DNA from: a bacterium
GTDB taxonomy: Bacteria; UBP18; UBA7526
Length of the DNA stretch: 14,513 bases
Assembly: GCA_030619985.1 (NCBI GenBank)
Contig: JAUXAI010000029.1
Span: 1 to 14,513 of the forward strand
Reading direction: 5' to 3'
Shown: positions 4,984-12,969 of the stretch, piece by piece
Layout: every line of letters begins with the position of its first letter
Position numbering within the stretch: position 1 is the stretch's first letter
Translations under genes and position numbers: made by a program
The notes under the pieces: generated by a model
Seen by the model: the letters and a program-made list of their open reading frames with translations, nothing else
What the model was told of the DNA's origin: nothing
Database searches by the model: none

Positions 4984-5029
4984 GCTTTTAATATCACTGT
5001 AATCTCGCCTTTAATATCACTGTAATCCC
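4984..5029. repeat. Tandem 23-nt repeat upstream of mobA, with an inverted copy of its core
   Basis: Two 23-nt units (4984-5006 and 5007-5029) agree at 21 of 23 positions; the shared core is TTTAATATCACTGTAATC on the plus strand. A third related copy lies inverted at 4922-4934 (GATGACAGTGATT), sharing 11 of 12 bases of ATCACTGTNATC. Three copies in a short non-coding leader suggest binding sites for a regulator of mobA. No convincing -35/-10 pair was found near them. Confidence 0.6.
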
Positions 5030-5963: not shown

Positions 5964-6028
5964 AGTTGGATTGGTTGGATTCAAAATCCAACTAATTTCC
6001 TAGTCCACCTATTTTCCTAATCTACCTA
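5964..6028. repeat. Small inverted and direct repeats in the leader of the channel gene
   Basis: Plus-strand AGTTGGATT (5964-5972) and GTTGGATT (5974-5981) can each pair with AATCCAACT (5985-5993), giving two mutually exclusive short hairpins. Beside them TTTCCTAGTCCACCTA (5996-6011) and TTTCCTAATCTACCTA (6013-6028) are 14/16 identical tandem copies; the second covers the stop codon of the upstream gene. There is no T-run, so a terminator is unlikely. Confidence 0.5.
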
Positions 6029-6865
6029 AAATTCTTTTGATAGTCCTTTTATCTCTTTGTAAGAGAAGACTGGGCCATCGAGACAGGTATATTTGGGGCC
6101 GATGTTACAGTGGCCACACTTCCCCACTCCACATTTCATGTACCTTTCCAGGTTAGCAAATATTCTCTCGTCCTTAAGGCCTATCTTTACCAATCCCTCA
6201 ATGACAAAGGGAATCATGACCGGTGGGCCGCAGACAAAGGCAAAGGCCTTTTTAGGGTTTACTTTTATCTTCTCAAATAGAGTAGTAACCACTCCCACAT
6301 TCCTCTTCCATTTACCATCCCCTTCATCAACAGTGACTAGTAACTCTACATCCTTTCTCCTCTCCCATCCCTTCAGTTCATCCTTAAAGACCAGTTCCTC
6401 TGGATTCTTTGCTCCATAGAGGATGATTATTCTTTCAAAATTCTTTCGCTTATCGAGTATATAGTTTATCAAGGACCTTAGGGGCGCCAGGCCGATCCCT
6501 CCTCCCACAAATAGGATATCGTATCCTCTTATATCTTTTATGGGAAAGCCATTCCCGAAGGGACCCCTTAGGCCAATCACCTGACCTTTCCTTAAATTAT
6601 GGAGAGCACTGGTTACAGAACCAACATCCTTTATACTGATTTGAAGGTCCTTCTGAGTAGGAGAGGATGATATGGAGAAGGGAGCCTCTCCTGTCCCAAA
6701 GACAGAAATCTCCAGGAATTGACCGGGAATAAACTTTATTTTCTCTTTTAGGAAAAAGGTAAACCCCGCCCCTCGTAGAGGAGCGAGGGTAAAGGTCTTG
6801 ACGTCTGAGGTTTCTTTCTGTACTCTTTTAATCTTTCCTAATTGAGGAAGATAGATGTTCTTCAT
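6026..6865 (-). CDS. FAD/NAD(P)-binding oxidoreductase with C-terminal [2Fe-2S] site (HydG/PyrK-like)
   Basis: A 279-residue ferredoxin-NADP reductase-type subunit like the gamma subunit (HydG) of archaeal sulfhydrogenases and like PyrK. The FAD site is APFSISSSP (61-69), with RGPFGNGFP at 100-108. The nucleotide site is FVGGGIGLAPLRSLI (119-133) with CGPPVMI (212-218). The C-terminal C245-x4-C250-x2-C253-x7-C261 should hold a [2Fe-2S] cluster. The start ATG 6865 overlaps the upstream stop as ATGA; a frame extending to 6934 is rejected. It would carry electrons between NAD(P)H and the Fe-S subunit, and hence to FdhA. Residues 25-36 (FTLAPLRGAGFT) come from the palindromic element at 6762-6793 and look inserted just before the FAD-domain motif IPGQF. 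Confidence 0.92.
   Translation of the reverse strand: MKNIYLPQLGKIKRVQKETSDVKTFTLAPLRGAGFTFFLKEKIKFIPGQFLEISVFGTGEAPFSISSSPTQKDLQISIKDVGSVTSALHNLRKGQVIGLRGPFGNGFPIKDIRGYDILFVGGGIGLAPLRSLINYILDKRKNFERIIILYGAKNPEELVFKDELKGWERRKDVELLVTVDEGDGKWKRNVGVVTTLFEKIKVNPKKAFAFVCGPPVMIPFVIEGLVKIGLKDERIFANLERYMKCGVGKCGHCNIGPKYTCLDGPVFSYKEIKGLSKEF
6762..6793. repeat. Palindromic element, copy A, in frame within the HydG-like gene
   Basis: A 32-nt sequence identical at 31 of 32 positions to 7649-7680 in the neighbouring, unrelated gene. On the minus strand ACCC-T-CGCTCCTC and GAGGGGCGGGGT form a 12-bp stem with one bulged T, one G-U pair and a 3-nt loop. It is read as FTLAPLRGAGFT, counting a few flanking bases. 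Confidence 0.85.
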
Positions 6866-7905
6866 TTCATAATCTCGTGCATCACCCGGGGCATATTGAT
6901 GTTTCCAAGGCAGGTAGTAACACACCTTCCACAACCCACGCAGCCATGCATCCCAAACTGCTGGGGTTCGTAAACTAACTTATGATAGAATCTCCTCTTG
7001 ACTCGATCCTTCTTCTCTTCCCGGGGGTTATAGCCTCCGGCCATCCTAGTATAGCCGGAAAAGGTGCAGGAGTCCCAGGTACGCATTCTCTTTCCTTCCT
7101 CTTTACCAGTAACCCGATCGATGAGATTAAAGCAGAAACAGGTGGGACAGACATAGGAACAGCCTCCGCAGTTCTGACATCTGACGGCCAGTTCCTGCCA
7201 CAGACTCTCCGGCACCTCTTCATTTTCCATCTTCTTAGCCACCAGATCGAAGTCCACCTCTTCTTTAAACTTTCTCTCTGCCTCGCGAACCGTCTGGATA
7301 TTCTCCTCCTTCTCTTCCCTACTTGCCGGTCTGAAGAAGTAATCGTACCTTTCTATTAATTCTTTTCCTTTTCGGGAACCAATCTGGACATAGTATCTAT
7401 CCTTAAGGTCAGTGAGTTGGATATCGAATCCTCTTTTAAGAAAGGGACCGGTTCCTGCTGAAAGGCAGAAACAGTGTTCCTGGGGTTCGTTACATCCTAA
7501 GAGAATAAAGAGGGTATTATTCCTTCTGGTAAAGTAATAATTATCCTCATAGGCCAAGGCATAATAGCCATCGAGAAATAGAATGCCTGAGAAGTCACAG
7601 GGCCTTATCCCAAATATAATCCTTCTTTTGGTCTTTAGGGGAACGGTCAACCCCGCCCCTCGTGGAGGAGCGAGGGTAAACTCCTTTCCCTTCCAGGAGA
7701 AGAGGGTCTCAAACTGAGGAAAGAAGAACCTCTTGGGAGGCATGATGGTATTGGTAAAATCTAAAACAACATCATGTTCTGAGGTTATGGGATCGAAGAC
7801 GATATCTCCTCCCTTTCCCTCAACCGGGGCAATGATCTCAAAATGCTTATTAAGTCTTCTTATGAGGGGGAAGGTATGCTCTTTGTAGAGTATCCAATCT
7901 CTCAT
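6862..7905 (-). CDS. Fe-S electron-transfer subunit, HydB-like (4Fe-4S dicluster domain)
   Basis: A 347-residue cytoplasmic Fe-S protein like the beta subunit of sulfhydrogenases (HydB) and AsrA. The N-terminal half carries IIFGIRPCDFSGILFLD (96-112) and GCNEPQEHCFC (137-147), both conserved in that family. The C-terminal half has two [4Fe-4S] motifs: C243-x2-C246-x2-C249-x3-C253 (plus C256 and C258) and C322-x2-C325-x2-C328-x3-C332. It would pass electrons between FdhA and the flavin subunit. The start ATG 7905 overlaps the fdhA stop as ATGA, with AGAGG upstream; the 3' end overlaps the next gene by 4 nt, so the three subunits are translationally coupled. Residues 76-87 (FTLAPPRGAGLT) derive from the palindromic element at 7649-7680. 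Confidence 0.91.
   Translation of the reverse strand: MRDWILYKEHTFPLIRRLNKHFEIIAPVEGKGGDIVFDPITSEHDVVLDFTNTIMPPKRFFFPQFETLFSWKGKEFTLAPPRGAGLTVPLKTKRRIIFGIRPCDFSGILFLDGYYALAYEDNYYFTRRNNTLFILLGCNEPQEHCFCLSAGTGPFLKRGFDIQLTDLKDRYYVQIGSRKGKELIERYDYFFRPASREEKEENIQTVREAERKFKEEVDFDLVAKKMENEEVPESLWQELAVRCQNCGGCSYVCPTCFCFNLIDRVTGKEEGKRMRTWDSCTFSGYTRMAGGYNPREEKKDRVKRRFYHKLVYEPQQFGMHGCVGCGRCVTTCLGNINMPRVMHEIMK
7649..7680. repeat. Palindromic element, copy B, in frame within the HydB-like gene
   Basis: 31 of 32 bases match copy A (6762-6793); the single change is in the hairpin loop. The reading frame is the same as in copy A, giving FTLAPPRGAGLT. The two host genes are not homologous, so the likeness must come from the element itself. 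Confidence 0.85.
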
Positions 7906-11360: not shown

Positions 11361-11840
11361 TCATCTAAACCGAAACCATCTCTTAAAGAATGGTTCTTTC
11401 TTTGCTACTGGAGGTTTTTTCTCTTCTGGCTTTGGTTTTACTTCCTTAATTTCCTTAGGCTTTTTCTCTACCTTCTCTTTTTTCTTTTCAACTACTGGGG
11501 CGACCTTTTCCACCAATTCTATCAGAGCCAGGAAGGCATTATCCCCCCTTCTCTGCCCCAATCTGAGGATTCGGGTATAACCACCGGGCCTTTCCTTAAA
11601 TTTGGGACCAATCTGAGAGAAGAGCTTCTTCAGGACCTCCTTATCTCTTATCACCTTCCCCGCTTCCCTTCTCGAAGCCAGGGTATCCTTCTTTGCCTTA
11701 CTAATTAGCCTTTCTACCACTCCCCTCACCTCCTTTGCTCTGGGAAGGGTGGTGGTGATTCTCTCATAACGCAGAAGGGAGGTGGCCAGATTGGAAAGCG
11801 TGGCCTTCCTATGGGAGGAGGTGCGTCCCAGTTTTCTCAT
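11361..11840 (-). CDS. rplQ: 50S ribosomal protein L17 with a charged C-terminal tail
   Basis: Residues 1-112 are a normal bL17, a large-subunit protein near the peptide exit tunnel: KLGRTSSHRKA (3-13), SLLRYERITTT (21-31), AKEVR (35-39) and GGYTRILRLGQRRGDNAFLALIEL (86-109). A tail of about 47 residues follows, rich in Lys, Glu and Pro and ending in the aromatic-basic FFKRWFRFR. Many L17 proteins stop near residue 115-125, so this is an extension. The start ATG 11840 has AAGGTG 5 nt upstream; this site lies in one arm of an inverted repeat (11841-11977). It is the last gene of the operon, before the terminator at 11295-11326. Confidence 0.96.
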   Translation of the reverse strand: MRKLGRTSSHRKATLSNLATSLLRYERITTTLPRAKEVRGVVERLISKAKKDTLASRREAGKVIRDKEVLKKLFSQIGPKFKERPGGYTRILRLGQRRGDNAFLALIELVEKVAPVVEKKKEKVEKKPKEIKEVKPKPEEKKPPVAKKEPFFKRWFRFR

Positions 11841-11977
11841 CCCGCACCTTTTTTATGATTCACCCCGCCCCTTCCTTGCACGCAGTCGGGGATTTGGGGA
11901 GAAGAAGGAGCGGGGTTCACAAAGCTTTTTCTTTTGCTTTTTAAAAGATAAATATAGAACATGATAAAAGGTGCGGG
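11841..11977. repeat. Nested inverted repeats filling the rpoA-rplQ spacer
   Basis: Outer arms CCCGCACCTTTT (11841-11852) and AAAAGGTGCGGG (11966-11977) are perfectly complementary over 12 bp. Inner arms 11862-11877 (ACCCCGCCCCTTCCTT) and 11901-11916 can form a 15-bp RNA stem on the minus strand with two G-U pairs. The inner arms share GGGGCGGGGT and the opposite CGCTCCT with the palindromes at 6762 and 7649. The outer 3' arm contains the whole rplQ ribosome-binding site. The spacer of 139 nt is long for this gene pair. Confidence 0.75.
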
Positions 11978-11979
11978 GC

Positions 11980-12969
11980 TCATCTCTTTATCCCCGGAGA
12001 TAGCCCATAGCTTGTTAAAATCTTCTTTATCTCTTCTAAGGACTTCTTACCGAAGTTTCTTATCTTCAAGAGTTCTTCCTCGCTCTTCCTGGCCAGCTGA
12101 CCGATGGTCTTTATCTTGGTTACTTTAAGGCAGTTGGCGCTGCGTACAGAGAGTTCCAGTTCCTCAATGCTCTTATTCAGAATCTCATCTACCCTCCTCT
12201 CTTCTTCTTTCACCTCAACCTCCTCTTCCTCTTTAGGTTCAGGGAAAGTGATGAAGAGATCGAGGTGGTTCTTTAATATCTTGGCAGCAAAAGCCACCGC
12301 ATCATCTGGCCTGACGCTTCCATCTGTCCAGACCTCTAGGATAAGCCGATCATAGTCTGTGATCTTTCCCACCCTGGTATTCTCTACCCGGTAACTCACC
12401 TTCTTTATGGGAGTAAATATGGAGTCTATGGGAATGGTCCCGATGGGATTATTCTCTTTTTTATGTCTCTCTGCAGTAATATATCCCCTACCCACATTTA
12501 CCGCGATCTCCATATTCAGTTTACCCTTTTCATTCAAGGTGGCGATATGGAGGTCGGGATTCAGGATCTCGACATCGGCATCCTTGGTGATATGGGAGGC
12601 CTTGACCTCTAAAGGCCCTTTGACCTTTAGATATAGGGTCTTGGGCTTTGCTTTATATAGTTTTAGGAGTAACTGCTTGAGGTTCAGGATGATCTGGGGG
12701 ACATCCTCCATTATCCCAGGAATGGTAGAGAACTCATGCTGAACTCCTTGAATCTTGATGCTGGTTACCGCTGCTCCAGTTAGGGAGGAGAGGAGTATCC
12801 GGCGCAGAGAGTTTCCAATGGTTATTCCATAGCCCCTTTCTAAGGGCTGAGCAACAAATTTACCATAGGTAGCAGAGAGGGTCTGCTTCTCCCACTCTAT
12901 CCTCTTGGGTTTGATGAACCCCTTCCACTGGATGCTTATATCCTGCACTTCTCTTTTGGCCTTTGCCAT
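11980..12969 (-). CDS. rpoA: RNA polymerase alpha subunit
   Basis: Alpha subunit of 329 residues, of normal length. The N-terminal dimerisation and assembly domain covers about 12-240, including GYGITIGNSLRRILLSSLTGAAVTSIKI (47-73). An acidic linker (about 245-262, Glu-rich) leads to the C-terminal DNA-binding domain (about 266-325) with the helix-hairpin-helix LELSVRSANCLK (271-282) and IRNFGKKSLEEI (303-314). The Arg in VRSANCLK matches the residue that contacts UP elements and activators. The start ATG 12969 has AAGGAGG at good spacing. It follows rpsD after a 121-nt repeat-bearing spacer. Confidence 0.98.
   Translation of the reverse strand: MAKAKREVQDISIQWKGFIKPKRIEWEKQTLSATYGKFVAQPLERGYGITIGNSLRRILLSSLTGAAVTSIKIQGVQHEFSTIPGIMEDVPQIILNLKQLLLKLYKAKPKTLYLKVKGPLEVKASHITKDADVEILNPDLHIATLNEKGKLNMEIAVNVGRGYITAERHKKENNPIGTIPIDSIFTPIKKVSYRVENTRVGKITDYDRLILEVWTDGSVRPDDAVAFAAKILKNHLDLFITFPEPKEEEEVEVKEEERRVDEILNKSIEELELSVRSANCLKVTKIKTIGQLARKSEEELLKIRNFGKKSLEEIKKILTSYGLSPGIKR

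Follow-up and report, generated by a model that had tools for sequence, protein, structure and literature searches.

Short palindromes with four-base target duplications inside genes and at gene starts of a candidate-phylum bacterium and of Omnitrophota

What does it mean that two adjacent genes of unrelated function carry almost the same hairpin in the same reading frame? Coding sequence is usually damaged by mobile DNA. The case arises in a 14,513-nt stretch of bacterial DNA (the window), contig 11 of a 1.25-Mb MAG that is 83.65% complete; all genomes analysed here are MAGs.

Matching hairpins in the HydG-like and HydB-like genes

The best direct repeat in the window pairs positions 6762-6793 with 7649-7680, which are identical at 31 of 32 bases. 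The first copy lies in a gene on the minus strand (6026-6889, start approximate) for a flavoprotein of the HydG/ShyC/AsrB-like kind, a FAD/NAD oxidoreductase with NAD_binding_1, FAD_binding_6 and DHODB_Fe-S_bind domains; the second lies in a gene on the same strand (6862-7905) for a HydB/ShyB/AsrA-like Fe-S protein with a Fer4_22 domain. A sequence-only reading of this DNA had described the pair as near-identical hairpins, read in the same frame in non-homologous hosts, and the description survives a renewed count, folding and the distinct domain content of the two proteins, which are unrelated to each other. The coding strand of each copy folds as a stem of 12 bp that has one bulge and closes on a 3-nt loop, with energies of -20.1 and -23.3 kcal/mol (z about -3.2); the sole base difference falls in the loop, and both copies are translated as FTLAP(L/P)RGAG(F/L)T.

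The elements can be delimited more closely. In the hydG gene a 26-nt palindromic element (6764-6789, minus strand) stands between two copies of a target-site duplication, TAAA at 6760-6763 and at 6790-6793 (TTTA on the coding strand), and adds 10 codons including the duplicated TTTA. The hydB element (7651-7676, minus strand) has the same length and is flanked by TCAA at 7647-7650 and TAAA at 7677-7680, which differ by one mismatch; here too palindrome and 4-bp duplication make up an inserted unit of 30 nt, or 10 codons. Homologues of both proteins in eight genomes do without the segment, and two Omnitrophota HydG proteins (45% identity), aligned to that of the window, leave one clean 10-residue gap at the insertion. 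The earlier suggestion that the segments are tolerated insertions therefore stands, with a size of 10 residues rather than 12. By these alignments both copies persist as short peptide insertions. AlphaFold models from three-sequence alignments reached a mean pLDDT of 50 for HydG and 32 for HydB, too poor for placing the insertions; in the low-confidence HydG model, residues 35-44 would fall within or close to the loop that joins two strands.

A dispersed family inserted at TNAA

The two hairpins belong to a genome-wide family, as the sequence-only reading had supposed. The arm pattern ACCCYGCNCCY has 115 matches in the genome against 4 for the same pattern reversed, a control that places the repeat beyond chance, and the search brought up dozens of further copies. 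Stretches around the arm matches yielded a catalogue of 60 inverted-repeat pairs with at most two arm mismatches. The elements end in CCCCG(C)...(G)CGGGG, have terminal inverted repeats CCCCGCNCCT...AGGNGCGGGG around a variable interior, and span 23 to about 160 nt in total, with length classes near 25-26, 48-53, 62-75, 100-121, 130 and 162 nt that have their ends in common and differ in their interiors.

Identical 4-bp flanks were found at 38 of the 60 pairs, where 20,000 shuffles gave a mean of 10.9 and a maximum of 21; at any offset other than four bases the flanks agreed in 0-2 pairs. The 22 pairs without a perfect duplication are older, nested or chance pairs. The duplicated words, TGAA/TTCA, TCAA/TTGA and TAAA/TTTA, read as TNAA on one strand.

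Empty sites in relatives demonstrate insertion, at the rpoA-rplQ junction and twice in lipA. The spacer palindrome between rpoA and rplQ that the sequence-only reading had counted to the family is real and consists of two nested elements. The outer one, of 139 nt (11840-11978, minus strand), is flanked by a TGAG duplication (CTCA at 11836-11839 and 11979-11982); with it in place the stop of rpoA is retained and the ATG of rplQ is made anew. Inside it sits a 53-nt element (11863-11915) between TTCA at 11859-11862 and at 11916-11919, and the same kind occurs at C71:8108 and C45:8424. In four related genomes the two genes overlap in ATGAGG and the site is empty (AGATGAGG in G001, G002 and G005; AAATGAGG in G004), in the window's own genome (G000) it is filled as TGAG[139 nt]TGAG, and in G003 this TGAG is occupied by another element. 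The two 30-nt insertions in lipA of the window's genome are found in neither G002 nor G003, and solved lipoyl synthases have the same gaps at both; dtd of the window's genome has one insertion, again a gap in homologues. The hydB-hydG junction is empty in the window (AAATGAAGAAC; AAATGAAGAACATC) and filled in an Omnitrophota locus (L185), as AAATGAA[82 nt]TGAAGAATATC. At the tsf start a 103-nt element in the window's genome has as its counterpart a different 50-nt element in G002, and at rpmD several relatives have tandem or nested elements, each of which remakes TGAA. Covarying flanks and empty sites together establish that the elements enter at TNAA and duplicate 4 bp there, a feature that the sequence-only reading had not described.

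The family is present in this bacterium, in its relatives and in many Omnitrophota MAGs. Inverted-repeat pairs occur in all six genomes analysed from the window's own phylum (reversed control, 0), and pairs with TNAA flanks in the same 6/6 against 0/92 genomes of other groups. Among GTDB contigs the TGAA form was matched in at least 108 stretches; the matches listed are nearly all from Candidatus Omnitrophota, with some from MAGs named only 'bacterium', and none of the 80 listed is from Rickettsiales. The viral contigs searched had no copy.

Several loci add detail on the make-up of the family. Two 23-nt tandem copies (GCTTTTAATATCACTGTAATCTC), 91% alike, lie at 4984-5029 of the window, between a mobA-like gene and a formate-transporter gene. 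A 75-nt element occurs in four copies (C9:12691, C47:9110, C55:103 and C10:10884; L063, L070, L074 and L049), three of them near contig ends; since these have longer flanks in common (GGCCTCAC..TCGTTCGGCAATTTCA and CAAGCAGATTAGCA), the repeated unit is larger than 75 nt. Before rpmD, at about 3560-3750 of L190, an element has CCCCG ends and TGAA flanks with different arms (CCCCGTTAGACTC..GAGTCTAACGGGG); what the sub-families have in common is thus limited to the outermost bases.

In-frame copies and copies at gene starts

Where do the copies come to rest without harm? Among the short copies of the six genomes, length plus four is divisible by three in 13 of 13 mid-gene copies and in 10 of 20 elsewhere (Fisher p 0.002), with the classes assigned by eye on a small sample. 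Mid-gene elements measure 23-26 nt. Their hosts in the window's genome are hydG, hydB, lipA (twice), dtd and a Wzy_C gene, and in relatives genes for an MTHFR C-terminal protein, an amidase, KdtA, an aminotransferase, DciA, a nucleotidyltransferase and a metallo-beta-lactamase-fold protein, the last with a 23-nt copy. Such in-frame insertions in many unrelated conserved genes support the mobile-element reading that was first proposed from the hydG and hydB pair. Of the two outcomes named in advance as refuting it, residues present in homologues and a lack of further copies in the genome, neither was observed. Three reading frames of the palindrome are in use (FTPLL, INPAP and LPRSC types). A frame-shifting 25-nt copy alone in mid-gene was seen nowhere among these short copies of six genomes; priA of G004 has one directly beside a 26-nt copy in tandem arrangement, and the two jointly add 60 nt. 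Copies of 26 or 23 nt can persist inside genes because with the four duplicated bases they make whole codons, and the resulting 30 or 27 nt would add a short, tolerated peptide.

A different in-frame palindrome, ACCTGTCTGCGTGC..GCACGCACAGACAGG, lies in lipA of G002 (L115, G002:C34, about 1724-1760), where it adds 30 nt or 10 residues; a match at L142 represents this very arm, from another G002 record. The find suggests a second family of palindromes that shares the in-frame habit.

The main niche of the family is the start codon. Copies of at least 45 nt, including those of 100-121 nt, lie mostly at gene starts, a preference that went beyond the earlier observations, as did the abundance of the family in Omnitrophota. 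Elements of 48-162 nt go into ATGAA, in many cases where two genes overlap in ATGA, and the right end in sense direction, GGAGGGGCGGGG|TGAA or GAAGGTGCGGGG|TGAA, gives GTG AA(R), so that the remade start is GTG, sometimes ATG, behind a new Shine-Dalgarno (SD)-like stretch. The remade start opens an ORF of 60 codons or more in 25 of the 35 copies of at least 45 nt in the window's genome (-1 frame, 0) and in 51 of 57 Omnitrophota copies (-1 frame, 3); in the +1 control frame the TGA is a stop. The left TGAA follows an A, the first base of the old ATG, in 51 of the 57 Omnitrophota copies, and the left TGA is the stop of an upstream ORF in 10/35 own copies (controls 0 and 1) and 25/57 Omnitrophota copies (controls 2 and 5). 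The downstream ORFs are genuine genes; those with a Pfam domain from or near the remade start include the genes for methionyl-tRNA formyltransferase (fmt), EF-Ts, L30, PTS enzyme I and RadA, among others.

The stop and start of this architecture can be read directly from the DNA, and their use as signals in translation is probable. On entering ATGAA, a longer copy leaves the upstream TGA stop in the left duplication, and its right arm with TGAA supplies an SD-like stretch and a start; both genes would survive because the left stop is kept and the start is remade. The left arm can pair with the new ribosome-binding site, with the upstream stop at the foot of the hairpin, in which case a terminating ribosome would open the hairpin and the coupling of the two genes may be preserved. 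When the single strand is folded, the SD-like stretch has a pairing probability of 0.84-0.86, which falls to 0.40-0.53 with the left arm blocked, the state that a ribosome stopping at the left TGA would impose.

At one start, that of an NAD-dependent epimerase gene (L009, 1300-1560; C42:7700-7950), an element with a TTCA duplication has the MKILVTGGAG-coding start twice: one copy precedes the left arm, the other lies immediately within the right arm. The right arm, GGAGGGGCGGGGTTCATCGG, is itself the GGAGFIG motif.

Nature of the elements and known systems

In all likelihood these hairpins are very short non-autonomous mobile elements, MITE-like, with a TNAA target, a 4-bp duplication and two designs that spare coding sequence. 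How were they moved? Two transposase families were searched, Y1_Tnp (PF01797) and DDE_Tnp_1, and neither is present in the six phylum genomes, where a control profile did match in the Y1_Tnp search. DDE_Tnp_1 genes occur in 5 of 8 Omnitrophota genomes, at loci with different terminal repeats and none flanked by the element ends. Across all loci examined, a single and spurious long inverted-repeat pair with duplication was of a size to enclose a transposase, and in two Omnitrophota genomes no isolated arms were paired at a spacing of about 1-3 kb. Transposition would be the work of a putative recombinase.

Could the palindromes instead be REP-like hairpins, moved as single-stranded DNA by a REP-associated tyrosine (Y1) transposase? 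Their short, GC-rich, imperfect hairpins and many copies would fit, as would the fixed asymmetry of some short forms, which have T-G on one strand and C-A on the other. A variable 4-bp duplication on both sides is not expected of Y1 elements (IS200/IS605), however, and here the variable duplications agree on both sides and empty sites exist. Together with the lack of Y1_Tnp, the enzyme class of TnpA-REP, in all six carrier genomes, and with long copies that lie mostly at gene starts instead of being confined to extragenic DNA, this makes such an origin very unlikely. Nor does the element consensus have the GTAG or CGTC end by which REP/RAYT sequences are tagged (PMC3733652), despite the likeness in size, GC content and number.

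The folding results bear on another account, in which the hairpins are regulatory RNAs, such as SD-sequestering switches, kept by selection before particular genes and not mobile. The left arm does pair with the SD-like right arm at gene starts, and the arms covary as A-T and C-G. The downstream genes, however, are unrelated (fmt, tsf, rpmD, rplQ, PTS, RadA and others), orthologous sites are empty or, at rplQ and tsf, hold different elements at the same start, copies also lie within ORFs and carry target duplications, and Rfam at gathering scores returned tRNAs and no match to the elements. Regulation as the reason for the hairpins is accordingly highly improbable; once inserted, the elements may influence translation. 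Least credible is the view that hydB and hydG merely exchanged sequence by gene conversion and that no mobile family exists, for which speak the one-base difference, the GCGAGGG variant common to both copies and some similarity reaching past the element, and against which stand differing flanks (TAAA/TAAA and TCAA/TAAA) and the presence of the element in relatives and at dozens of sites unlinked to these genes; conversion could have homogenised this pair of copies and would leave the family unexplained.

The mobile-element reading invites comparison with described families. The Rickettsia palindromic elements (RPEs) and the Wolbachia elements (Ogata et al. 2000, 2002, 2005; described in PMC10969869 and PMC3767692) were the likeness that the sequence-only reading proposed, and it holds in part: palindromic repeats lie in frame in many ORFs of unrelated function and leave them unbroken. 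RPEs are set apart by a repeat length of 100-150 bp (PMC3767692), whereas the in-gene copies here have 26 (or 23) nt, and for this reason the elements are not filed as RPEs. They differ further in their clear TNAA duplication with empty sites, in a main niche at the start codon or stop/start overlap where the start is remade, and in their hosts, Omnitrophota and another candidate phylum.

The elements also match MITEs (PMC10969869), in that they are short, have terminal inverted repeats and no coding capacity, duplicate a target that is single at empty sites, are dispersed in many copies, and form several length classes with common ends as well as nests. They depart from MITEs in being unusually short and in habitually using start codons whose SD and start they re-create; the Y1_Tnp and DDE_Tnp_1 searches found no parent transposon with these ends. 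The MITE review mentions neither start codons, stop codons nor ribosomes (PMC10969869), and open-access text yielded no account of such elements in Omnitrophota, nor of MITEs or palindromes that remake start codons.

Start or stop codons are also the sites of some bacterial group II introns, although this is an analogy only. A wider model is plausible, if slightly harder to accept than to doubt: an element lineage common to Omnitrophota and one or more further candidate phyla may have specialised on translation junctions, inserting in ATGA, sparing the upstream stop, bringing its own SD and start behind a hairpin which would yield only to a ribosome that terminates upstream of it, and so keeping coupling, through a recombinase that is neither Y1 nor DDE_Tnp_1. 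With the stop at the hairpin foot and the next ribosome-binding site hidden, it is a testable model of coupled translation.

On the MITE-like reading, one family has two nearly harmless routes through a compact genome, as in-frame peptides and by swapping a start codon for an equivalent that the element carries. This is relevant to the persistence of selfish DNA where genomes are small, and to the origin of short lineage-specific insertions and of GTG starts; for annotators and gene callers working on Omnitrophota, many short in-frame peptides and GTG starts may derive from the element. A last locus (L058, 737-946; C43:10936-11145) has CCCCGCCCCTTTTT..AAAAGGGGCGGGG around a sequence that resembles tRNA, and within it one tRNA-like unit seems to be inserted in another (CCTGACTTGCC..GGCAAGTCGGGCAGG ends).
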